Shown here one piece after another: positions 5,425-23,977 of a stretch of DNA of 31,901 nucleotides. A program made the translations under genes and the position numbers. Numbering within the stretch: position 1 is the first letter of the stretch; each line of letters starts with the position of its first letter. Source of the stretch: a virus; IMG/VR virus record IMGVR_UViG_3300046328_000518, positions 1-31,901 of that record; one strand, given 5' to 3'. The notes beneath the pieces were generated by a model. The model was not told where the DNA came from. It was given only the letters and a program-made list of their open reading frames with translations, and did no database searches.

Positions 5425-7446
5425 TTACCATCTATTCTGTGGGCAATGTTGATTAGGGTTTTTTACTTTCTTTACTAATTCGCAACCACAACTAACACCA
5501 GCTATAACGCCTTTACCGCAGAAACCGTCTGTATACACCATACATTCGTTTGATTTACAAATAGCCAGTCTTTTTTCAGACTGCTCGGTTACAGGCGCTA
5601 CTACTGCGTCTACGACAGCTGTTACTGCGCTGATACCGTTTTCTTGTACGTTAGTCATTAAGGCTTTAGCGGCATCTGTGTATCTACCTAAAATAGACTT
5701 GTTTTCTATTATACCTGCCTTTTTTCTCCAGTACGCAGTTATGTCTGCAAAGTAATCTTTTCTGAACGTAGGAGTAAGCAGTCTATGTCCTGTGTAAGTA
5801 TTATGATTATCTTTGTATTCTTTCATACGTATAGCAGCAGTTTCTTCGTTTTCTTCTACCCCTTTACCGCTAATACGATACACACCATTATTCAACTGGT
5901 AGCATATAGGGGTCATCTTTAACGTAATATCCCTTGTGTTATCGGGTAAATGTGTAGCTATCATATAATCTTGACTTACACACACCCACTTCGGCAATGC
6001 TAATTCGTTAAAGTATTCACGTTTATACAGCCCTGCGTATTTACCTGCGTTAGTATTATGTATTTCTTGTAACGGTACAAAGTTTTCCATGTGTAACATA
6101 GATGTAGGTAACACAGCTAATGTACGTTTATGATGTACTACGTTATTAACCCTATCTGTTTTTTCTTCAACGCTAAACGCTTGTTTAAGTATAAACAATG
6201 TTTGCGGTAATCTTAAGTCGTTGTCGTCCATAAAGTGAACGTAGTCGCCTCTAAATTGAGGTATAGCTTTATTTATTACATCACCTATACCAGATGTTTT
6301 AGCGTAATTCAATATCCTTACGCTACTAAATTTTGTAGGTATATCAGCTTTGTAATCAGCTTCATCTAATCTATACGTAAGTTCAGAATTATTGTTTATA
6401 ACAAGCCATTCCTTATTAGGATAATTAAACGACACAAAACATTTATATGCTTCTTGTAATTCTATCGGTCTATTAGACGTTAGAGTTACAACTGTAATTA
6501 ACGGCTGTTGTGTAACGATTTCATTTATTTCTTTAACGTACCACCAGTTTGCAAACCTTGTATCAACGTTATGTGTACGTACAAGTGGCGATTTTTCCTT
6601 AAAATGTAGTTTGTTAAACGACGTAGTGTTGCTTGCATCAATACCTGCGTTGTGGTATATTTTATTAACATTCCACATACTCGCTTTGTCTGTTGCCCAA
6701 GTAAAATTAAGCTCGTTAGATAATTCAGTATTAACATTGTTTTTCCACAACGTCCATAAAACTATCCACATATCGGCACACCAACTTTGTAACGCATGGT
6801 AATCTCCTTCAACTTCTTCTCGTTTTATTCTATAATCTTCCGCTACGTTGTAAAAATTATGTACGGCAGATAAACACTGTAACCAAAATTGTTCATTAAC
6901 AGTATTAGGCTTAAAATAGTAATGACACCCTCCGCTATTGTTATTGTTTGCTTTAACAACGTCTTTACGTATCCCAACAGTTAAACATAACTTATCAAGT
7001 AAATCTTCTTCATTCTTTATTCTACCTTTAGACGCTATGTAATCGTAATTCAAATAACTATTACAATCAGACATATAAACAGTGCTATCGTTAGCAAATT
7101 GCGTTTCGTCTAACCATTCTCTAAAGATTACGTCGCTATCTATATACAATACAGATTTAGCGCTAAGTTCTCCATTTACGTTGTACTGTTTGTAGTATTG
7201 TGATAATAATTCAAACCTTAAGGCAGGTACGTATTTATGCAAGTTAATTTCGTAAACAACTATATTAATCCCTTCGCTAATACGTTCTTTAGCCCAACTG
7301 CTTAACGTATTGCCTTTAAATACGCCTAACAGTATAACGTACTGTTTGTCCTTGTTATGCTTCTTTAGGTTATGCAGTTGTATGTCTAATTGCCAATGAA
7401 AATATTGCTCATCAGGTTGCGCTGAAACTATCATTATTTCGTTCAT
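5425..7446 (-). CDS. Two-domain glycosyltransferase with Cys-rich C-terminus
   Basis: 673 residues. Domain 1 (about 1-300) begins like a GT-A fold (MIVSAQPDEQYFHWQLDIQL) and carries a DSDVIF motif near residue 121, the metal- and nucleotide-sugar-binding DxD. Domain 2 (about 310-600) starts PLITVVTLTSNRP, as GT2 enzymes do, and has YVHFMDDNDLRLP near 415, again an Asp-rich metal site. The last 50 residues form a Cys/His cluster (CKSNEC, FCGK, SCGCEL, HCPQNRW) that could bind zinc. It probably transfers sugars to a phage or cell surface acceptor. It follows a Thr/Ser-rich protein gene, which could encode its acceptor. A leader of about 175 bases separates the two. Glycosyltransferase class is secure; donor and acceptor are unknown. 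Confidence 0.75.
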   Translation of the reverse strand: MNEIMIVSAQPDEQYFHWQLDIQLHNLKKHNKDKQYVILLGVFKGNTLSSWAKERISEGINIVVYEINLHKYVPALRFELLSQYYKQYNVNGELSAKSVLYIDSDVIFREWLDETQFANDSTVYMSDCNSYLNYDYIASKGRIKNEEDLLDKLCLTVGIRKDVVKANNNNSGGCHYYFKPNTVNEQFWLQCLSAVHNFYNVAEDYRIKREEVEGDYHALQSWCADMWIVLWTLWKNNVNTELSNELNFTWATDKASMWNVNKIYHNAGIDASNTTSFNKLHFKEKSPLVRTHNVDTRFANWWYVKEINEIVTQQPLITVVTLTSNRPIELQEAYKCFVSFNYPNKEWLVINNNSELTYRLDEADYKADIPTKFSSVRILNYAKTSGIGDVINKAIPQFRGDYVHFMDDNDLRLPQTLFILKQAFSVEEKTDRVNNVVHHKRTLAVLPTSMLHMENFVPLQEIHNTNAGKYAGLYKREYFNELALPKWVCVSQDYMIATHLPDNTRDITLKMTPICYQLNNGVYRISGKGVEENEETAAIRMKEYKDNHNTYTGHRLLTPTFRKDYFADITAYWRKKAGIIENKSILGRYTDAAKALMTNVQENGISAVTAVVDAVVAPVTEQSEKRLAICKSNECMVYTDGFCGKGVIAGVSCGCELVKKVKNPNQHCPQNRW

Positions 7447-7621: not shown

Positions 7622-8410
7622 CTATACACATACGCCTTCAATATCTAACCCTGAACAGCAATCATCAACTGAATTAACAAATGGCACAAACGGAGGTAAA
7701 CAGCTTACACATTTACCTGCGGCAGCTAACCCTGAACAACAATCTATTGCGTTACCAAATGCTTCATTCGGTAGACAATCTACGCATACACCGCTAATTG
7801 ATAACCCTGAACAACAATCAAGCCCTCCTCCAGTAGTCCCACTTGATAAACAATCTACGCATATACCTGCTTCTACTAATCCTGAACAACAAGTATTTGC
7901 TCCACCAGCTGAGCCAGTAGGTAAACAAGGTGGAACAGTCGTTGTACTCGTAGTGGTAGTCGTCGTTGTTGTAGTTAGTGGCGGCTCAGTAGTAGTAGTT
8001 GTAGTACTTGTACTTGTTGTAGTAGTCGTAGTAGCTGGTTCACATATACCATTAACGGCATAGCCCGAACAACAACTAAAGTTTGTACCTACACCCCCAT
8101 TTGGCGTACAACTTGGCGGTTGCGTTGTCGTAGTTGTAGTGGTTGTGGTTGTAGGTGGCAACGTAGTACTACTTGTACTGCTTGTGCTTGTGCTACTGGT
8201 CGTACTACTTGTTGTAGTGCTCGTAGTCGTAGTGGGCGGTAAAGTAGTCGTACTTGTACTGCTTGTAGAAGTAGTCGTACTCGTAGTAGTAGGCGGAAGC
8301 GTTGTTGTAGTCGTACTACTCGTACTTGTTGTAGTACTACTCGTTGTAGTACTTGTTGTTGTGGGTACAACATACCCACAACAACATGATGATACTAATG
8401 ATTGTCCCAT
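7622..8410 (-). CDS. Mucin-like Thr/Ser-rich protein with five CCSG cysteine modules
   Basis: 262 residues. It starts MGQSLVSSCCCGYVVP, followed by about 80 residues of almost pure Thr/Ser with LPP spacers. Cysteine modules follow, the first isolated by a second Thr tract. Each module is a Cys, 10-12 residues, then CCSG, four residues, Gly-x-Cys; I count five, the last four joined by Val-Asp-Cys or similar. Spacing of this kind suggests small disulfide-bonded knottin-like domains. The Thr/Ser tracts look like O-glycosylation targets, and the next gene encodes a double glycosyltransferase. It follows fibre genes, so a surface-exposed virion decoration is likely. Thr codons are mixed, so the tract is probably selected at protein level. 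No exact family is recognised. Confidence 0.7.
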   Translation of the reverse strand: MGQSLVSSCCCGYVVPTTTSTTTSSTTTSTSSTTTTTLPPTTTSTTTSTSSTSTTTLPPTTTTSTTTSSTTSSTSTSSTSSTTLPPTTTTTTTTTTQPPSCTPNGGVGTNFSCCSGYAVNGICEPATTTTTTSTSTTTTTTEPPLTTTTTTTTTSTTTVPPCLPTGSAGGANTCCSGLVEAGICVDCLSSGTTGGGLDCCSGLSISGVCVDCLPNEAFGNAIDCCSGLAAAGKCVSCLPPFVPFVNSVDDCCSGLDIEGVCV

Positions 8411-8795: not shown

Positions 8796-9659
8796 TTATA
8801 TACGATTAAGTTTTACGTTTAAAGTTACATAATCCGCTTCAATGGAAATATTTTGAGTATTCGCTGCGTCAGCTCCTTCTTTATACAAAGTTATAGACAT
8901 ACCTAAAAATTGATTATACGGTATGTTAGTGTCTATAGTTGCAGCAAGTACATTATCAATATAATATTCACATACAGCGTTACTACCTACTCTACTTATT
9001 TTAATGTTAAATAACGTATACGGTATAGTACCTACTGTAACTGTTTGTGGGGCTATACCAGTAGTAACAGTAGTCGATACGCCTCCAGCAGTAGCTACGC
9101 ATTGATACGTACTCGCTATACTTTCATTGTAATTAAAATACAACCCTTGTATAGGCGGTATGCCAGCTATATACCTTAACATACCTAACATTACTTTGTA
9201 TATTCGTGTTGTAGGTACAGTATTTCTTGCTACCCTAACAAGCGCTTTATAGTCATATTGAACAAACTCGGTAGTAGCAATCGGTATAACAAAAAGGTTA
9301 TTAGACCCTAAATTTACTCCAGACGATATACCAACCCCTGAGCTTAACACAGCAATGCCCCTTAAATTAGCTAATGTAGGCGTTACAGGGTTATTAGTAA
9401 TTGTAACAGTTCCACCTGTCGCAGTAACTACTCCTGACGTGTAATTAAAATACCTATTGTCGCCAGTAGTGCTTATAAAATCATTTTCAATAGATATATT
9501 ACTAAATATGTCTTTGCTCGTTTGATTAACACTATTCGATAATTTTGATACAGCCTGTGATACTGTATCAGTCGGTAGAACAGCTCCTATTAACGTAGGG
9601 GCTAATTTTGTGCCTAATACTTTATTAAGCACGCTTGGTATTTGATTTGAACCTGCCAT
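8796..9659 (-). CDS. Fibre protein, second of two tandem paralogues
   Basis: 287 residues. The first 45 residues (MAGSNQIPSVLNKVLGTKLA, ending AVSKLSNSV) match the opening of the gene upstream nearly position for position, while the rest is different. After the anchor comes a beta-rich body (FISTTGDNRYFNYTSGVVTA onwards) that looks like a lectin-type jelly roll: strands alternate with Asn/Thr-rich turns and a Tyr-Tyr-Ile-Asp-Asn hairpin near 235. A conserved attachment end with a diverged outer domain is the usual sign of a head or tail fibre that binds host surface glycans. A 61-base AT-rich gap separates the two copies. Confidence 0.6.
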   Translation of the reverse strand: MAGSNQIPSVLNKVLGTKLAPTLIGAVLPTDTVSQAVSKLSNSVNQTSKDIFSNISIENDFISTTGDNRYFNYTSGVVTATGGTVTITNNPVTPTLANLRGIAVLSSGVGISSGVNLGSNNLFVIPIATTEFVQYDYKALVRVARNTVPTTRIYKVMLGMLRYIAGIPPIQGLYFNYNESIASTYQCVATAGGVSTTVTTGIAPQTVTVGTIPYTLFNIKISRVGSNAVCEYYIDNVLAATIDTNIPYNQFLGMSITLYKEGADAANTQNISIEADYVTLNVKLNRI

Positions 9660-9720: not shown

Positions 9721-10551
9721 CTATCTACTGTATTTACCTTTTATTTCTACGTAATCTATAAGCACGCCGCCGCCTGAAGAATTACTGTTAATTGAGCTTG
9801 TTTTCCTACAAAAAACAGCATGACGTAGCAATTTACCTGTCGGTATATTACTCGTTATCGTCCCTATAATAGCACCATTCATATAAAATTTACAAGTTAT
9901 AACACCTGACAGCGTTTCTATCGTTATAGAAAATTTATTTATATTACTGTTCGCTGTTACTTGTATTCCTGTATCGATTATAGTGCTTATATTGTTTGAT
10001 ATACACACACATACGTAATTAGGAGATAATCCACCGTTATACCTTATAAACACGCCATCAGTCGGCTGAACGAGTATAGTATTTGTTAGTCCTATTATGT
10101 TTTCATGTAAAGCAGAAGAAGCATTGTACGGTACAGTAAATAAACTTAATCGGTAATTAAATTCGTAATTCGTTATACTTTGCATTACAGCTTCTATAAG
10201 AAACGTAAGCGTAGAGCTTATACTTACGTTCGCATTAACAGTAGTAGAACTACCTAACGAAAGCCTAATTATTCCGAATACTGCGTTTGGCTCAATCGAC
10301 GTATTAAACGCTAACGCAGAAGTAGCTCCGTTATTTGTTGTATAAATGAAATATCTTGTATCAGACGTTGTCGTAACCATATCAGAAAATGCGTATAACG
10401 AAACTTGATTACTTAACGGTGCGTTATTCATTAACTTTGAAATAGCCTGTGAAAGCCTATCGGTGGCTAATACTGCGCCACGTAACGTATAATCTAAAGT
10501 CGTACCCAACGTCTTGTTGAGTACGCTTAATACTTGATTTGAGCCTGCCAT
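9721..10551 (-). CDS. Fibre protein, first of two tandem paralogues
   Basis: 276 residues. It begins MAGSNQVLSVLNKTLGTTLD and then GAVLATDRLSQAISKLMNN, an anchor shared with the next gene (Ser-Asn-Gln, Val-Leu-Asn-Lys, Leu-Gly-Thr, Gly-Ala-Val-Leu, Thr-Asp, Ser-Gln-Ala, Ser-Lys-Leu all coincide). A 'T(T)SDTRYFIYTT' segment also matches 'TTGDNRYFNYTS' of the paralogue, so similarity reaches at least residue 75. The C-terminal part is beta-rich and ends in IDYVEIKGKY. It is probably a host-recognition fibre or spike. The plus strand here has a long open frame in the same place, which I regard as a shadow. Confidence 0.6.
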   Translation of the reverse strand: MAGSNQVLSVLNKTLGTTLDYTLRGAVLATDRLSQAISKLMNNAPLSNQVSLYAFSDMVTTTSDTRYFIYTTNNGATSALAFNTSIEPNAVFGIIRLSLGSSTTVNANVSISSTLTFLIEAVMQSITNYEFNYRLSLFTVPYNASSALHENIIGLTNTILVQPTDGVFIRYNGGLSPNYVCVCISNNISTIIDTGIQVTANSNINKFSITIETLSGVITCKFYMNGAIIGTITSNIPTGKLLRHAVFCRKTSSINSNSSGGGVLIDYVEIKGKYSR

Positions 10552-10557
10552 AATGAT

Positions 10558-11544
10558 TTATCCGCTTATAACGTCTGTAATCACTGAACCTGCCGCTATT
10601 GAAAAAGAAATCTGTTGTAATATTCTAAATTCAGACGCATTAAACGTATACGCTGTGTCCGCTTCACGAAATATACCGTTTATAGTCCCAACAAAGTCTG
10701 CTGACGTTTTAAACGTAACAGACCTCGCATTAGCTATTCCGTTTGGGACTGCTGCAACCCCTATTGAATTGTGTAACGTACTTGTTATTGTTTGCGTATT
10801 AACGTTTGCTAACGGTGCATTATTTTTTATTGTCCCAGTATTGCTTTCTATTGCAAATAATTGTGATAATTGGTCGTATAATGTGTTATTAGTTGTGTTT
10901 AACAGTCCGACAATAGGAGAAACTGCGTTAAACACTTGTTGTTGTGTTCCTTCTTTGGTTAATCCTAACAGGGTACTTACTATTGTGGCTAATTGATACA
11001 TTAACGTGCTGTCTATGGATAATAACGTATCTTTTACTTCTATTTGCGTAGTTTCTTTATTTAACAGCGCACTTGTAGTTTCAATACTTGTTATTGTAGT
11101 CGCTATTTGATTAATAGCTGTTTTTAAATCAGTCAATATGCTTAATACAGATAACTGCGTAGCTTCTTGATTTAACGTAGTAGTCATTGTAGTTAATGCA
11201 GAGTTTGCTGTAACTAACTCTGAAACTACGTTATTAAGCGATTGTCTTATAACAGTCAGCTCTAACGACGTATTAGAATACGAATTTATATCATTACTAG
11301 TCATAGTCGCTAATTGATTAACTATCGCAGTTAATGTCGTTTCTACGCTATCAATTAATGACGTATATTCAGGTAATGCTTGTACGCTTGCATCTACGTT
11401 ATTAAGACTACTTAATATATTGTTTAATATAACGGTATAATCTATATTAGTACCACCACCAGTACCACCACCGTTGTTTACGTTACCTATGTTAATAGAT
11501 ATTTCTTCTAACAGTTTTGATATTTTATCACAACAACATTTCAT
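10558..11544 (-). CDS. Coiled-coil fibre protein with triple-Cys N-terminus
   Basis: 328 residues. It starts MKCCCDKISKLLEEISINIG, then has a Gly/Asn hinge (VNNGGGTGGGT) and about 200 residues of heptad-like helix rich in Leu, Ile, Val, Thr and Asn. Three internal repeats of the form Lys/Gln-Glu-x-Thr-Gln-x-x-Val followed by a Leu-rich helix start near residues 130, 168 and 200. The last 60 residues form a beta domain (ARSVTFKTSADFVGTINGIF onwards). Anchor, hinge, trimeric coiled coil and beta tip is a typical phage fibre layout. In the crAss group head and tail fibres lie in this part of the genome. It starts 30 bases after the 124-residue gene. Confidence 0.6.
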   Translation of the reverse strand: MKCCCDKISKLLEEISINIGNVNNGGGTGGGTNIDYTVILNNILSSLNNVDASVQALPEYTSLIDSVETTLTAIVNQLATMTSNDINSYSNTSLELTVIRQSLNNVVSELVTANSALTTMTTTLNQEATQLSVLSILTDLKTAINQIATTITSIETTSALLNKETTQIEVKDTLLSIDSTLMYQLATIVSTLLGLTKEGTQQQVFNAVSPIVGLLNTTNNTLYDQLSQLFAIESNTGTIKNNAPLANVNTQTITSTLHNSIGVAAVPNGIANARSVTFKTSADFVGTINGIFREADTAYTFNASEFRILQQISFSIAAGSVITDVISG

Positions 11545-11953: not shown

Positions 11954-13777
11954 TTAACAAGTTTTACAGTGATTTAACGTAGGCGTATCATTACACCCAC
12001 ATATAGCCATACCTCCTCCACAATTGGCTAAGTCTGCACATAACTGTTTTAATAGTGTTAGCCAATCATTAGCTGCGTATAAATCGTTTGTCAATTCACT
12101 ATTTAACGCTGTATACGCATAATTCAATGCTAAGTCTTTTTCAACGTAGTTAAAATACATTAATCCAAACAAAAACATCTTCCTAAAGTCGTGCTTATTC
12201 TCTTCTGAACAATTAACGGTATCACAGGATTTACATAATACTGTGCTTAACGCTGTCATTGCACATCTCCTAACATTACAGAAATTGTATATAGGATATA
12301 CAACTTGTTTAGTGCCGTCGGTTATAGTTATTATATATGTGCCGTCTTCGCCATTGTTTAAGTTATACGCTCTTGTTGATGCTGGAGCTAAACTGTCGTT
12401 AGCTACTAACGTAGCGCCTGTACTAACAGTTACTATATTAACTGTCATTGTTCTACTTATTGAACAATTTTCTAATACAAATACGTTACAATCTTGTTGT
12501 ACTACTCTATACGCATTACAGAAATTAATTATTTCTTCCTTAACGCATTTACTGTAACAATCTTCGTAAGTAACCGTTACTCGTTGTTCAGTTGGGCTAT
12601 TAATAGTAAACGTATAGTTAGCCATGACTGACGCTGTAAAACAAACGCTTCTATCATAAACAGCATTAACAACCGTTGTATTTATTAGTACATTATCTTT
12701 ATCGTATCTACGAAACGTAACAGTACCACTTGAGCAATAAGGTTCACATACGTTATTACGTTTTACACACGGCGTTTTTACAGTTATACTCGCTCTTACT
12801 GTTATAGGTTCTCCAGTTATGTTATATTCGCAATCTTCGGTAGCACAATGTTTATTTTGGACTAAACTTGTAGTCATGTCATTTATGTAATCTTCGATAC
12901 AAAGTTCATGCTCGTCATACTCTGAATACGCAACAAAAGTGCCGCACGTACTACATTCGTCTTCTAACGTAAGTGTTATTGTTTGTCGTCCTACTAAGTC
13001 GCAGCCAATAAGTTTACAGTCCTTTATAATGTTTTCTCCAATACCTATTAATTTATTATCTATTGTGTATGCTACTCTATCTCGTATAGATGATGTAGCA
13101 TTATAAAAATATAACTCTGACGTAACTATATCTTTATACACTATAAAATGTGGAAATATAAATTTATAATTATATACAGGATTGCCAGTTATAGCACTAT
13201 TGCCATTTATAACAGTAACTGTGTTACCGTCATTATCTTTTATAGTGTTTAACAATAAATCATTGTTCCACGTAGGGGCTATACGAACACCATAATAGTA
13301 TAACTTGTTTTCAGTTATTCTGTTTTTAAGCACCATTACAGGCGGATTAACAGTATTATTTGAGTTTATACGTGTAAATGTCTTATTTGTAAAAGGTGTC
13401 GGATTAATAGCCGTAATGAAGTTATCCCAATAAAGATTTTGTTCTCCTATATTGTTTATGCTATCTTGTTTCCATTCTTGAGTTCTTTCTACGTTACGTA
13501 TAAGCGGTAACATTATAGTAAACGGTACATTACCAGTTACATTATTAACTACGCTATTACCTAAATCGTAATTCGGTAATTTAAAGTTATTAACATAAGG
13601 AACACGACCGTAGTAGTCTATTTCAACGCGTATTAAGTCGTTTGCTGCAAACGTATGTTTGTACTCCGACAACGAACCTAAACTACTAATAGTAACTCCG
13701 TTTATTTTAACGGTAGTTGCAGGCGACGCTGTCAGTATGTTGTGGTCTTCGTCTATTAATTGTATATTGAGAAACAT
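11954..13777 (-). CDS. Large cysteine-rich virion protein with Ig-like/beta domains
   Basis: 607 residues. The N-terminal 300 residues are beta-rich (MFLNIQLIDEDHNILTASPA opening, a domain of about 90 residues like a carbohydrate-binding or Ig fold). From about residue 272 onward Cys is frequent: CSTC, CATEDC, CVKRNNVC, CYSKC, CNVRRC, CKSC, and a C-terminal CGGG, CGC, HCKTC cluster. Two or three Ig-like repeats seem present (strings such as ITVRASITVKTP and MTVNIVTVSTGATLV). The last 100 residues include a helical segment (HDFRKMFLFGLMYFNY). It is probably an external head or tail protein; the number of Cys residues suggests disulfides or metal sites. No specific family is recognised. Confidence 0.6.
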   Translation of the reverse strand: MFLNIQLIDEDHNILTASPATTVKINGVTISSLGSLSEYKHTFAANDLIRVEIDYYGRVPYVNNFKLPNYDLGNSVVNNVTGNVPFTIMLPLIRNVERTQEWKQDSINNIGEQNLYWDNFITAINPTPFTNKTFTRINSNNTVNPPVMVLKNRITENKLYYYGVRIAPTWNNDLLLNTIKDNDGNTVTVINGNSAITGNPVYNYKFIFPHFIVYKDIVTSELYFYNATSSIRDRVAYTIDNKLIGIGENIIKDCKLIGCDLVGRQTITLTLEDECSTCGTFVAYSEYDEHELCIEDYINDMTTSLVQNKHCATEDCEYNITGEPITVRASITVKTPCVKRNNVCEPYCSSGTVTFRRYDKDNVLINTTVVNAVYDRSVCFTASVMANYTFTINSPTEQRVTVTYEDCYSKCVKEEIINFCNAYRVVQQDCNVFVLENCSISRTMTVNIVTVSTGATLVANDSLAPASTRAYNLNNGEDGTYIITITDGTKQVVYPIYNFCNVRRCAMTALSTVLCKSCDTVNCSEENKHDFRKMFLFGLMYFNYVEKDLALNYAYTALNSELTNDLYAANDWLTLLKQLCADLANCGGGMAICGCNDTPTLNHCKTC

Positions 13778-17039: not shown

Positions 17040-18482
17040 CTACGCTTTCAAGATTAATTGTCCGCAAGTAAATGGGTTCTCAATATGGATACCCTCTTCA
17101 GACAACGTGTGAATACTGTAACTGTCTTGATTGTGTGAACGGTTAGTTCCGAATGATGACGCTGTACCAGTTGGCGACGTAGCACCAGACACGCTAAACA
17201 TTACGTTTTCTCTATCCATTTTAGCCATTTTTTTAATGTTAGCTCTCCCACTTTCGGTAGTAAAGTCAAGGATAGTCATTTTGTATGACTCTAACGGTCT
17301 ACCGCTAATAGAGTGCTTGTTAAAACTCCTTGCGTCTGTATTGTTATCGTACATAGGAAACGGCATTAATGTTAGTTCAGTGCCATTTACGCCTCTAAAA
17401 GTTGTGTACTGATTAAACGTAAGCGTTTCGCCTTTACCGTTAATAAACGTAGTATCAATCTTTTGGAATTGAGATGCACCATTAATTAACGCTTTAGAAA
17501 ACTCTATCATACCGTACTCGCCAGTAAACGCTACAAACTTTCTTGCACCTTTACTTTTCTTATTATAAGATAGCTCCATTAAAAAGTTTTGTATAATATC
17601 CACAGTGTATTTAGGAACAGTCCACACTACACCAGCACTAATCTGCTGTTCAACGCCTGCGCCTGAATACATGGGTCTACCGTTTACAGACTTTTTGTTA
17701 CTCATCTTACCTCTCCACAACGCTTTTTCTCTTTCACAGTACCACTGTTTTAACATTTGATATTCAGCTAACGTAGCCCACTTATCTACATAAGTTACCT
17801 TGTCGCTGTCTTTAGCTTTAACAGGAATTTTAAATACCATAACGTCGCTTGCGGCACTGCCAGTAATAGACGCTGATTTTACTAACGTAGTTAAACAGTT
17901 TTCAAACCCTAATGGTGTTGAATACGTAGTGTTACCTCCACCTTCTCCTTCTGCAATTTTTGTGTAGTCCTTAGACCACATGCTACCAGTTTTCAACATA
18001 CTTGGCGCTAACCATGCGTCTTTGTTGTCGTCATCTAACGTAAGTTTATACGTATAGCCTGTACCAGTAGGCGTTCCGTCGTCCATTAAACGTACTTGCT
18101 GTCCGTTCTGCGCAGATAATACGTCTGCTAACGCAAACTCTTTTTCTGCAAATTCAATCTCTCCTATTTCTCCGCCTAATAACGGCTTGTTTACATTACC
18201 GAACTTCCCTGAACCTATAACAGGCATTGCACGTTCTGCTACTCCCATCATGTTCCATCTCCACTTTCTGTTCGTAATAATTTCTGTTTTCCCTAAAGAT
18301 AACAGCTTTGATAACGGAGTTTCATTGTTTACGTTACTGAACATGTAGTCCATTAACATACCAGCCTTTACTGGCTCTGTAAGCGCATAATTACTTAAAT
18401 GCGCACTTGACGTTAAGCCTGAGTGGTGTTTACTTTGCAATATTTGTAAACCGCTTACTTTGTTATTTATCGCCTTTGGCAT
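17040..18482 (-). CDS. Major capsid protein (HK97 fold, crAss-like)
   Basis: 480 residues. The N-terminus (MPKAINNKVSGLQILQSKHH) lacks a long scaffold-like delta domain. A segment NRKWRWNMMGVAERAMPVIG (about 72-91), followed by a Gly-rich strand and EKEFALADVLSAQNG, matches the capsid 'W-x-M-x-G, R-x-x-V, GxG, EK-x-F-x-x-x-D' layout of crAss-like phages. Later come 'EYQMLKQWYCEREKALWRG' (about 248-266), the spine-helix region, and a C-terminal strand ending TCGQLILKA. Its place directly after scaffold and portal is the conserved order. It is 27 bases downstream of the scaffold gene and ends TAG-TAA before a strong terminator. It would form the icosahedral shell. Confidence 0.85.
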   Translation of the reverse strand: MPKAINNKVSGLQILQSKHHSGLTSSAHLSNYALTEPVKAGMLMDYMFSNVNNETPLSKLLSLGKTEIITNRKWRWNMMGVAERAMPVIGSGKFGNVNKPLLGGEIGEIEFAEKEFALADVLSAQNGQQVRLMDDGTPTGTGYTYKLTLDDDNKDAWLAPSMLKTGSMWSKDYTKIAEGEGGGNTTYSTPLGFENCLTTLVKSASITGSAASDVMVFKIPVKAKDSDKVTYVDKWATLAEYQMLKQWYCEREKALWRGKMSNKKSVNGRPMYSGAGVEQQISAGVVWTVPKYTVDIIQNFLMELSYNKKSKGARKFVAFTGEYGMIEFSKALINGASQFQKIDTTFINGKGETLTFNQYTTFRGVNGTELTLMPFPMYDNNTDARSFNKHSISGRPLESYKMTILDFTTESGRANIKKMAKMDRENVMFSVSGATSPTGTASSFGTNRSHNQDSYSIHTLSEEGIHIENPFTCGQLILKA

Positions 18483-19631: not shown

Positions 19632-21950
19632 TTACGGTTTACTTTTCTTTAGGCGCTCTGTTTCAGCTATCGTTTTGTTTATATTCGCTAACTCTTGCGC
19701 TGTTGCGTTAAACGTATTGTCGTTATTTGTTTGCAAGTTTACATTGTTTTTTTGATTTTCAAGCGAATTTGCAGATTTTTCATTAACGGTAAGATTAGCT
19801 ATCTTCAGTTTAGTGTCGTTATCTCTTATGTTATTTTCACGACTTATAGCTAATTTCTCTCGTTCTAACGCTATTTTTTCAAGCTCTATCGTTTTATTAG
19901 CTTCTTGCGCTTGCATTGCCGCTGCCCTATCTGCTTCTTCCTTAGCTTGTTGCCTTTCTATTGCAGCTTGTTCTTCTGCACGTATCTTAGCTACTATGCC
20001 CGCTACATCTTCTGCTTTACGCAATTCAATAGAAGTAGACATATTTATTATACCTGCCTGTAAAGCCCTATCAATACTTTCTACCGCTTTATCAAGCACT
20101 AACATATCTCTTGACGTTGTAGTTATGAATATACCAAATTTAGCATCATTGAACAAGTCTGCGTCATACTCAAGAACAGCAAGTTCGTTATCGTCACCTA
20201 TATATGAAAACAGTTTATTTTCTCTATACGCACCTTTAGCTACATGTAGTAGCTTTTCGTCAAGTTCTTTCAGTATTTGTTCGTGTCTTGTAAACATAAT
20301 TTCTGTTATATGCGCAGATTGCACTACCGCAGCATTTACATTACCTACTAATTCGTCTTTGCTTATAGTTGCTTCACGCTGTGGTGATATACCAGACGCT
20401 TGTGCCGCTGTATTCATAAGGAACGATATCATTTCTATATACCTACCTATACTGGCACTTAGCGATAAGTCTATTTCTTTTATCCCTGTATACCCGCTCG
20501 GTCTTCCTGTATCTTCCCCGTTTTGCATGGGGTTTATAAAGATTATTCCGCTATTCGATATGTAATGTAACCATTCTTCAATAGTAAGCGCATTATCGCC
20601 CATTCTTGGTAGTTGTGTTACGTCCATTAACAGTTTTTTTCCTACTTCGCTTTTCATTAACTCTAATTCTAACTTATAGTTTAGTCCGTTAATAAAAAAC
20701 TGTATAGGCTTTAACACATCTACTAACGACGTAGCTTTACTGTTCAAATCAGAATATGTACCACCTACATAGTTTAATGTACAGTCATTAGACATGTCTT
20801 CTATATCTACAAATTGGTAGTCTATCGGCTTAACATTTACTACTATGTCATTTAAAATTATTGTACCCTGCCAAGCTATAACTACGTTTAATCTATTTAT
20901 AGTAGCTCTACCTTTAAGCTCTATCGGCATTTTGAAGTTATTAGGAACAATCTCTTTAACTTCTACGCCATTATCGTCTGTATATGTAATACTTTTTATT
21001 ACAATAGCTTGTTTCCATTCAGTATGAGTTACTGATAATCCGTGTTCATATACACCGTCGTGCACTGCGCCTACGCTATTATACAGCTCACTAACAAAGA
21101 AATTACCTTGTATGTTACCGTTTTCCGTAGGAGTATCGTACCCTAATGACATAAAGTAACCATTGTACGTTTCTATACGCTGTATTTGTTCTTTAGTTAG
21201 TTCAGTTTTAAACTCATCTATAATGGCATAAGGCATACACACACGACGTTCTTTAACCCAATCAGCATGACTAATTGACGTTTGTTCTTGATTTTTGTCG
21301 TATTCAATGTTTATAGGATTAACAACACGTATAGCTGGTTTGCCGTTTTTTACTGTAACGTGATAAAATTCTTCTGCTACGATAGCTGCGTGTTGCCAAC
21401 CTAACAGCGTTAATGTATCTAAATTAAGTCGCCTACGTTCCATAGTTCTTAACTTAGCTGCAAGTTTTTCTCGTGTATCTTGATACGTGTACGTACTTAA
21501 TTCTTTTAACGATTTAGGCTGTTCTTTTGGTTGTTCTGCCATTCCTACTTCGGCAGCTGTTTTTTGCAAATCAAGCATTAGTTGTTCTTTTATGAACTTA
21601 GCTTTCTGTTCGCTTTTAGTATTAAGTATATTATAACTAATGCCTTGAACAGCGCACCTAAAAGGGCGTTTTTTTTGTTCACCTATCAGTACATTTACTT
21701 TGCTTCTCGTTATATCTAAGTGGCGTACTTTTGCAGGTAGCGATATATCAGGAATATATTGATTACACGTTGTAATAATATCTTCTACTCTTACTATGCC
21801 GTTATACAAGTCGTAATTAATACGCTTGTCTTCTATACTTGCACGTCCTCTATACGTATCAACAGAGCTAAACCCGCTGCGAATAGTTAATATCCTTTTT
21901 TTAGCTTCTTCAATGTCAGCGTCTGTTACAAACTGTGATAAATCTATCAT
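19632..21950 (-). CDS. Portal protein
   Basis: 772 residues, a size usual for crAss portals. The early part contains VRHLDITRSKVNVLIGEQKK (about 77-96), the stretch preceding the wing seen in crAss-like portals. The middle has a long beta region; about 500-600 is helical (IGRYIEMISFLMNTAAQASG, then ISPQREATISKDELVGNVNA, then TRHEQILKELDEKLLHVAKG), consistent with the crown/stem helices. The C-terminal 130 residues are Ala/Gln/Glu-rich coiled coil followed by an Asn-rich tail. Its ATG overlaps the terminase stop (ATGA at 21947-21950). It would form the dodecameric vertex through which DNA is packaged. The ring proteins further on are its tail-side partners. Confidence 0.85.
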   Translation of the reverse strand: MIDLSQFVTDADIEEAKKRILTIRSGFSSVDTYRGRASIEDKRINYDLYNGIVRVEDIITTCNQYIPDISLPAKVRHLDITRSKVNVLIGEQKKRPFRCAVQGISYNILNTKSEQKAKFIKEQLMLDLQKTAAEVGMAEQPKEQPKSLKELSTYTYQDTREKLAAKLRTMERRRLNLDTLTLLGWQHAAIVAEEFYHVTVKNGKPAIRVVNPINIEYDKNQEQTSISHADWVKERRVCMPYAIIDEFKTELTKEQIQRIETYNGYFMSLGYDTPTENGNIQGNFFVSELYNSVGAVHDGVYEHGLSVTHTEWKQAIVIKSITYTDDNGVEVKEIVPNNFKMPIELKGRATINRLNVVIAWQGTIILNDIVVNVKPIDYQFVDIEDMSNDCTLNYVGGTYSDLNSKATSLVDVLKPIQFFINGLNYKLELELMKSEVGKKLLMDVTQLPRMGDNALTIEEWLHYISNSGIIFINPMQNGEDTGRPSGYTGIKEIDLSLSASIGRYIEMISFLMNTAAQASGISPQREATISKDELVGNVNAAVVQSAHITEIMFTRHEQILKELDEKLLHVAKGAYRENKLFSYIGDDNELAVLEYDADLFNDAKFGIFITTTSRDMLVLDKAVESIDRALQAGIINMSTSIELRKAEDVAGIVAKIRAEEQAAIERQQAKEEADRAAAMQAQEANKTIELEKIALEREKLAISRENNIRDNDTKLKIANLTVNEKSANSLENQKNNVNLQTNNDNTFNATAQELANINKTIAETERLKKSKP

Positions 21951-23977
21951 GCTCTTTGTTTAGTTATAAATGCTTTTAAATTCCAATTATTAGGTGTTGC
22001 TTCTTCGTCGTCGTTTACTACGGCTTTAACCTTAGCTAAATTAGACATAAAGATAAATATAAGGAACAATGCTATCGCTCTATCGTAATTACCTTTATCT
22101 TCGTAAGCTACAAGTTCTTGTAGAGTAGCTCGTTCGTACAGCTTAGATGTATTATACACTATTTCTTCTCCTCTTGTTGTATATTGTGTGAGTAACCAGT
22201 CCCTTAATAACATTTCTCCAGCGTCTTTAATAGCTTTAGTCATGTGTATTCCTTTTCCACGATTAACTGTACTACGTGATATAATTGTCTTTATAAACAA
22301 GTCGGGAGTATCTGCTAACATATGTCCTTTATTCTTATTTTCAAAATATACTTGTACGCCTTTGTTTTGGTTTTCAAACATTGTGATAGCGTTATAGTAT
22401 ATTACTAAATCAAGTGCGATTTGATAAAACTCTTCAGCTTTATCTGGTCTTCCTACGTAGGTAGCTACAAGCATATCATTATGTGGGTCGCCTGCCTTAT
22501 ATCTTTTCCATATACACAATGCACCTAATGAGCCTGTATTAGATTTATCTAAATCGTAACTATCAAGCCCTCCTATATAATCATACATATTTGGGCGTTT
22601 ACTTACAGGCTCAGCAATTATAATTACGCTCCCTTTAGGGTTAGTCCCACTCTTTACTGGATACTCTAACATTACGTCTTTCCCCTCAATAAAGATAGGT
22701 CTATTATCGTCATCATATATCGTTTTTCCTTTTAAGTCTGTTTTAAAATAACCGCTCTTAACAATATTACTATACTCACGCTTAACGGTAATTTCTGATA
22801 GCTGTTCTTTTAGTAAAGTTATAGGAAATACACTACCGCTACTCCTTGTAAACGCTTCTTGCGGTGTTTGTGGTTCTTGTGATTTATTTAAGTCTTGTTC
22901 TCCTTTAGACTTTCCGCTTAGCCCTTTACGCTTTTCTAACGTAGAATTTTTAGCATTATCTAATAAACTTACCCCTTCGTTGCTTACGTGTGGCAATTTA
23001 TACCAATTATCACTAACAAAGTACCCACATTCTCCTACAGCATTTTCATCATACACATTTGTATAACTTCTTAGTCCGTACGCACTTGGAGAATAATACA
23101 TATCACAGAAATCAACAGTACCTTTTTCCATATCGCCGCCTGTACCGAATATGATAGGTGTTCCTATCATTATCTCCCCATCTTTAAACAAGTGTTTAGA
23201 TATTTCATACGACGCTTTAAGCGTGTCCCATTTACCTGCTTCTTCAAACAGCATGATAGACGCTGATTTACCAATAGACTTAAACGCTGTCTTTTTAAAG
23301 CCCATACACAGTATTTCAGATTTATATCCGTACTCAATAGCTTTACCGTTTTGAAATTCTATGTAACCAGATTTTATATGACTTGTAGATTTATCTATTA
23401 ATCTACGTTTAGCAAACGCAGTTGCTTCGTCTAAATGGTTTACCATATCAACAGCCATAGCCATAGTAGCCTGTGAATACGATAACTCGTATGCGCCTAC
23501 GATTGAATAACTGTCTCTAACAAAAGCATACTGGTACACCATGCTAAATGCCCCTTTAAATGAAAAGCCTTTACGACGTGCTTTTGCTATTATCATGCCC
23601 TCCCCTGCTAACTTTGCAAGTTCGAGCTCGTGATAATAGTAATAGTCCATGTCAAGGAAACGTGGAAGTCCTCTCGCTTTCTTTACGCCAGTAGGTGTAC
23701 TTACGGTAGCTTTAATTATACCGTAATTTAAGTACGCATAATGTTCTCCAGTTATTCTTACGCCACCTACTGTATAACCGTTACGTATCCGTTCTTCTTC
23801 TGTATCCCAAAAGTCGTTATATTCTTTGCTGTTTACTGGCGCTGAACAATACACTCCTTTACCAGTTTTGTTATACGTTTCCGTCCACTTTAGTCCGCTT
23901 TCTTGGAATAAGCGTGTATTTACAAAATGAACGGGGTTAGATATATGTAACGGTATATGTTTTGTTATGGTTGTCAT
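21947..23977 (-). CDS. terL: Terminase large subunit (ATPase-nuclease)
   Basis: 676 residues. Domain 1 (about 1-370) is the packaging ATPase: 'AKARRKGFSFKGA' (about 131-143) is the divergent Walker A of crAss-like terminases, with Ser/Phe in place of Gly-Lys-Ser/Thr, and ASIMLFEEAG (about 239-248) is Walker B with its catalytic Glu. A Gly-Gly motif follows (GTPIIFGTGG). Domain 2 (about 400-676) is the RNase H-like nuclease: YIGGLDSYD supplies the first Asp, 'TMFENQNKG' and 'DRAIALFLI' the later acidic residues. It would power DNA translocation into the head and cut the concatemer. The start at 23977 overlaps the previous stop as ATGA. The call is secure. Confidence 0.92.
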   Translation of the reverse strand: MTTITKHIPLHISNPVHFVNTRLFQESGLKWTETYNKTGKGVYCSAPVNSKEYNDFWDTEEERIRNGYTVGGVRITGEHYAYLNYGIIKATVSTPTGVKKARGLPRFLDMDYYYYHELELAKLAGEGMIIAKARRKGFSFKGAFSMVYQYAFVRDSYSIVGAYELSYSQATMAMAVDMVNHLDEATAFAKRRLIDKSTSHIKSGYIEFQNGKAIEYGYKSEILCMGFKKTAFKSIGKSASIMLFEEAGKWDTLKASYEISKHLFKDGEIMIGTPIIFGTGGDMEKGTVDFCDMYYSPSAYGLRSYTNVYDENAVGECGYFVSDNWYKLPHVSNEGVSLLDNAKNSTLEKRKGLSGKSKGEQDLNKSQEPQTPQEAFTRSSGSVFPITLLKEQLSEITVKREYSNIVKSGYFKTDLKGKTIYDDDNRPIFIEGKDVMLEYPVKSGTNPKGSVIIIAEPVSKRPNMYDYIGGLDSYDLDKSNTGSLGALCIWKRYKAGDPHNDMLVATYVGRPDKAEEFYQIALDLVIYYNAITMFENQNKGVQVYFENKNKGHMLADTPDLFIKTIISRSTVNRGKGIHMTKAIKDAGEMLLRDWLLTQYTTRGEEIVYNTSKLYERATLQELVAYEDKGNYDRAIALFLIFIFMSNLAKVKAVVNDDEEATPNNWNLKAFITKQRA

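Follow-up and report, generated by a model that had tools for sequence, protein, structure and literature searches.

Bacterial serine-rich-repeat adhesins and eukaryotic mucins carry long Ser/Thr tracts that are densely O-glycosylated, together with folded ends, and the adhesins have dedicated glycosyltransferase (GT) genes nearby. Glycosylation of phages matters for their recognition by antibodies, their adsorption and their stability, and experimental cases are so far few. O-glycosylation of the mycobacteriophage virion is reportedly the subject of Freeman et al. (2023, Cell Host Microbe), and the phage Che8 is, we presume, from that work. Phage-encoded GTs of mycobacteriophages are reported to place O-glycans on capsid and/or tail proteins, at the C-termini (PMC12619734, PMC11652166). 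This system is like the cassette that we propose below, with phage GTs and O-glycans on capsid or tail proteins, and it is a precedent for effects of virion glycans on antibody shielding or adsorption. The major capsid protein (MCP) and major tail protein of Che8 are without a poly-Thr tail, the first 20 kb of Che8 have no match to PHROG 4417, the family of the GT studied here, and mycobacteriophages are absent among the organisms in the PHROG 4417 matches listed. The pairing of poly-Thr with PHROG 4417 was not found in the literature searched in full text, which is not proof of its being unpublished.

The window, i.e. the whole stretch of DNA that was analysed, is a virus record of 31.9 kb in which the MCP (17040-18482), the portal (19632-21950) and the large terminase subunit, TerL (21947-23977), are all encoded on the minus strand and are covered by matches to PHROG 11589, 6547 and 6681. 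Against Crassvirales and FpV4-like phages, TerL and MCP show identities of about 29-35%. With the TerL, portal and MCP of Crassvirales all present, the window is, judged by its sequence, a crAss-like phage fragment; an earlier reading of the sequence only had also spoken of a crAss-like phage, and these three genes support it. Within the same gene run as the Thr/Ser-rich protein discussed below, and upstream of it, lie two paralogous genes (8796-9659 and 9721-10551, minus strand), the products of which both start with MAGSNQ and share 32.8% identity over 296 columns (E = 8e-34). These are likely tail or fibre proteins, the match of the pair to a tail-fibre PHROG being weak (0.012). The structural run also includes, at 11954-13777, a protein of 607 aa with 27 cysteines and no family match.

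The proposed O-glycan acceptor is encoded at 7622-8410 (minus strand, as are all the tracts and modules within it) by a reading frame that is open from ATG to stop and specifies 262 aa, among them 81 Thr, 41 Ser and 23 Cys. Thr and Ser together make up 47% of the product versus 15% in the other structural-strand genes of the window, and a 20-aa stretch reaches 20/20 Thr/Ser while those other genes never exceed 10/20. Consecutive Thr/Ser runs, 10-24 residues long, are found at aa 17-37, 41-56, 60-83, 87-96, 127-141 and 146-158, forming a first tract region (aa 17-96; 8123-8362), in which the runs are separated by LPP, and a second one (aa 127-158; 7937-8032). The protein has the long Ser/Thr tracts of mucin-like and serine-rich-repeat glycoproteins, and its likeness to such adhesins and mucins would be one of architecture alone. 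It could be argued that the tracts arose by neutral expansion of repeats and lie beside a GT by chance, and the DNA does hold weak tandem repeats. However, the Thr codon proportions in the tracts equal those of other genes, and identical neighbouring codons number 20 against 16.5 expected, which is no clear excess; therefore the tracts of the window are kept at the protein level. The codon use shows selection on the protein and rules out triplet expansion, and the linkage to the GT described below is far above that in shuffled loci, so that neutral expansion with chance adjacency is virtually without probability and already refuted as a general account.

The next gene downstream in the same run (5425-7446, minus strand, with all its domains) encodes a two-domain GT of 673 aa. 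Its N-terminal domain (aa 1-312; 6511-7446) belongs to PHROG 4417 (E = 1.4e-43), a family that carries the annotation 'unknown function' ('prophage pi2 protein 34'), the match covering aa 7-310 and profile positions 4-291 of 293. The structural model has pLDDT mostly above 90 over aa 1-310 and finds its best PDB matches among GT-A enzymes, namely WbbM, UGGT, the GT6 blood-group and alpha-1,3-galactosyltransferases, and glycogenin; the query included the low-confidence C-terminal half, which keeps the TM-scores modest. The domain is thus predicted from the model to have a GT-A fold, and it has a DxD motif, D103-S-D105 (7132-7140), in which both Asp are invariant in 36 homologues. Profile match, DxD motif with the modelled fold, and a Thr/Ser-tract neighbour directly upstream all mark the window GT as a member of the PHROG 4417 family. 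The N-terminal domain is followed by a Glycos_transf_2 domain (aa 318-429; 6160-6495; PF00535, E = 1.2e-6), which belongs to GT family 2 with a score of 29 bits versus the curated cut-off of 23.3, and by a Cys-rich C-terminal tail (aa 620-673; 5428-5589; PHROG 13558, E = 4e-6). The sequence-only reading, which placed a Thr/Ser-tract protein with five CC modules beside a double GT, is confirmed by the ORF, its composition, and the PHROG 4417 and PF00535 matches.

We propose, with a probability of about 0.7, that 7622-8410 and 5425-7446 encode, respectively, the acceptor and the enzyme of a phage cassette for protein O-glycosylation. One non-significant domain match aside, the acceptor has no relative in Pfam, PHROG, NCBIfam or the PDB, and therefore its assignment in the window depends on the adjacency of the two genes and on the general rule that connects GT and tract. 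For the latter, viral-contig homologues of the GT were gathered by an alignment-based search. In the phage collection, PHROG 4417 homologues occur in Enterococcus, Lactobacillus, Staphylococcus, Lactococcus, Chryseobacterium and a few other phages, mostly adjoining capsid or tail genes, and 10 of 11 loci with the GT have a poly-Thr/Ser tract on a structural or nearby protein. Phage 9183 has the GT and no tract. Tails of this kind are carried by named structural proteins, for example the MCP and major tail protein of phiFL1A, the MCP of Lactococcus phage CHPC836 and the major tail protein of nattely; Lactobacillus phage PLE3/iLp84 is another laboratory phage that bears the cassette. The GTs of Firmicutes phages share the N-terminal domain with the window GT (26-31% identity) and lie beside poly-Thr structural proteins, but they are mostly single-domain, and their acceptors are tails of MCPs or major tail proteins, in contrast to the free-standing tract protein with CC modules found here. 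Taking as criterion a Thr/Ser run of at least 6 in the gene directly beside the GT, and as expectation the outcome of 20,000 shuffles of tract genes within each locus, we found such a run in 32 of 39 dereplicated phage and viral loci (9.8 expected; reached in 0/20,000 shuffles) and, in an independent set, in 24 of 32 dereplicated bacterial and prophage loci (5.6 expected; 0/20,000). In the bacterial and prophage loci, the tract gene is always the gene before the GT, and a second tract peak lies 5-6 genes upstream of the GT, where the gene sizes fit major capsid proteins. GT and tract are thus linked across unrelated phages, and tracts of this kind are nearly confined to places where the GT gene is present.

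Homologous proteins with and without the tract allow a closer comparison. When viral loci were scanned with the core of one major tail protein family, trimmed of its tail, 80 homologs were found, of which 16 had both a poly-Thr tail and the GT, 64 had neither, and none had the tail only or the GT only; the association (Fisher, 2e-15) is that of a first tally, in which one locus (L233) counted as GT without tail. On the tree of the cores, tail and GT each change state 9 times, and they change together in 4/4 independent pairs on supported branches. Since a sign test on four pairs can never get down to 0.05, this is agreement and not proof of independence. At one locus (L238, 6619-7403), the GT gene is broken into two or three fragments and the adjacent major tail protein has kept its poly-Thr tail, as expected from a recent loss of the GT. 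A second family, which comes from environmental phages and is recognised by a DPDYIAP leader, had 20 loci with both tract and GT, 2 with the tract only, 4 with the GT only and 42 with neither (Fisher, 2.5e-11, with loci that were not dereplicated). The two tract-only cases are short contigs, whose ends lie no more than about 2 kb from the leader. All four GT-only loci belong to a single lineage (L310-L313), in which a Pro/Thr-rich sequence (TPAPTPAPTTTPAP) replaces the pure Thr tract. On homologous proteins, tract and GT are gained and lost jointly. Together with the cross-phage linkage, this joint appearance and loss gives good support to the earlier suggestion that the tracts are targets of the neighbouring GT. 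It also bears on a different explanation, in which the tracts would serve as flexible linkers or spacers that carry no modification, the GT having some other target such as host surface glycans, teichoic acid or DNA. Low-complexity linkers are indeed common in phage fibres, and GTs with which phages alter DNA or the host surface are well known (PMC12619734), but such an explanation does not account for a poly-Thr tail that is present only where the GT is the next gene (16/0/0/64), nor for the 20/2/4/42 of the second family, and we regard it as improbable.

In the O-glycosylation cassette that we favour, a phage-encoded cytosolic GT would modify Thr/Ser tracts on structural proteins, of which the window protein would be an unusually tract-rich example. 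In the cytoplasm of the infected cell, the N-terminal PHROG 4417 domain, with its GT-A fold and DxD motif, would add the first sugar to the Thr/Ser hydroxyls of the tracts; that the fused Glycos_transf_2 domain would then extend this sugar is our guess. The product could be envisioned as a dense, stiff, sugar-covered stalk that bears the CC-rich C-terminus and is displayed on the particle, and in related cassettes the acceptors would be the poly-Thr tails of MCPs and major tail proteins. Computation establishes the domains, the linkage, and that tract and GT are gained and lost jointly; what we infer is the transfer of sugar to the tracts, the addition of two sugars, their identity, the order of the domains and the virion location of the window protein. 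The benefit would presumably be shielding, adsorption or stability. As for restriction camouflage, which had been put forward from the sequence, it concerns modification of DNA and does not suit a GT paired with protein tracts.

That the window protein would be part of the virion is suggested by its place within the structural gene run. A related possibility is that the tracts are glycosylated but that the protein is a cytoplasmic or released decoy, or a superinfection factor, encoded in a late operon. A search for a recognisable virion-anchoring domain found none in the product of 7622-8410, which would agree with such a role, as would its short N-terminus and its want of relatives; yet the gene sits in a run of structural genes that all lie on one strand, and in other phages the acceptors are proteins with a named structural function, and we consider a non-virion protein unlikely, if the more credible of the alternatives. 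In a wider sense, we lean towards seeing in PHROG 4417 a widespread, horizontally moving two-part cassette of the tailed phages of Firmicutes and Bacteroidota, consisting of a dedicated GT and a poly-Thr/Ser tag that may be placed on different virion proteins (tail tube, capsid, fibres), of which the window would be an extreme form, with the tag turned into a mucin-like protein with repeated CC modules and the enzyme into a two-domain one. A phage protein family annotated as unknown would thereby acquire a function open to test, and a sequence rule would allow one to predict, from the genome alone, the phage proteins that are glycosylated and the enzyme responsible. The poly-Thr/Ser tag could moreover serve as a genetically encoded site for bacterial O-glycosylation.

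The five CC modules have CC at aa 113, 174, 199, 224 and 251 and follow the consensus C-x(11-13)-CCSG-x4-G-x-C, with an additional CCC at the N-terminal side of the protein. Module 1 (aa 101-123; 8042-8110) lies between the two tract regions, and modules 2-5 (aa 162-262; 7625-7927) are in tandem, about 25 aa each. No relatives of the modules were found by tblastn in phages, by three approaches on viral contigs (where two pattern matches lacked such a protein), in crAss-like records or in two bacterial genomes, and AlphaFold without an alignment gave pLDDT 44 for the region, which is no usable model. A knottin-like three-disulfide knot was rejected, each module having four Cys and not six and there being no PDB match of note, and a six-Cys knot minus one disulfide pair was dropped for want of supporting relatives. 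The product of 10558-11544 begins with MKCCC, which recalls the N-terminal CCC of the tract protein.

From the sequence only, the modules had been taken for binders, and modules and glycosylated tracts together for a system by which a gut crAss-like phage would adhere to mucus. The crAss-like backbone and the glycosylation part of this idea find support here. Against it, neither an Ig-like nor any other known binding or adhesion domain was found in the product of 7622-8410 with Pfam, PHROG and NCBIfam, the CC modules have neither relatives nor a usable structure that would speak for binding, and none of the crAss-like relatives searched, which comprised 80 MCP loci and 26 whole records, many of them fragments, has the GT/tract pair; the GT, Thr/Ser tracts and CC modules were likewise not found in the searchable crAss-like relatives, again with many fragments among them. 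We therefore reject the cassette as a crAss-like trait and regard it as an accessory cassette of the window phage, and mucus adhesion seems to us very doubtful. The expectation that the two genes would stay together in relatives is thus borne out as linkage across phages but not among the crAss-like relatives searched.

The N-terminal GT domain also occurs in Bacteroidota such as Pedobacter (L180), Niabella (L184) and Mucilaginibacter (L191), where it adjoins LanC-like genes, a lantibiotic dehydratase or C39-peptidase-type transporters, the Niabella and transporter assignments having been made by eye. In Pedobacter, the neighbour is a Lant_dehydr protein (E = 2e-131), LANC_like genes also being present in these Bacteroidota loci, and the GT domain shares its protein with a further, fused GT domain, Glyco_transf_7C, in parallel with the architecture seen in the window, while in Cricetibacter (L206, 9965-11167) it is fused to PqqD (5e-10), a link to peptide-recognition modules. 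As in the window, the N-terminal GT domain of these lantibiotic-type clusters is thus joined to further sequence, but their neighbours lack Thr/Ser tracts and the second GT domain of Pedobacter is of another Pfam family. With Lant_dehydr and LANC_like genes as its neighbours and PqqD as a fusion partner, the family acts in peptide-modifying settings, and a role in peptide or protein modification fits the phage tracts and the lantibiotic-type clusters alike; with peptide-modifying enzymes as neighbours, the clusters agree with our reading of the window GT as a protein-modifying enzyme. Possibly these clusters make glycosylated lanthipeptides. Around the GT (about position 10000), clusters with LanC-like, LanB-like and C39-peptidase-type genes recur at L180, L184, L191, L220 and L178.
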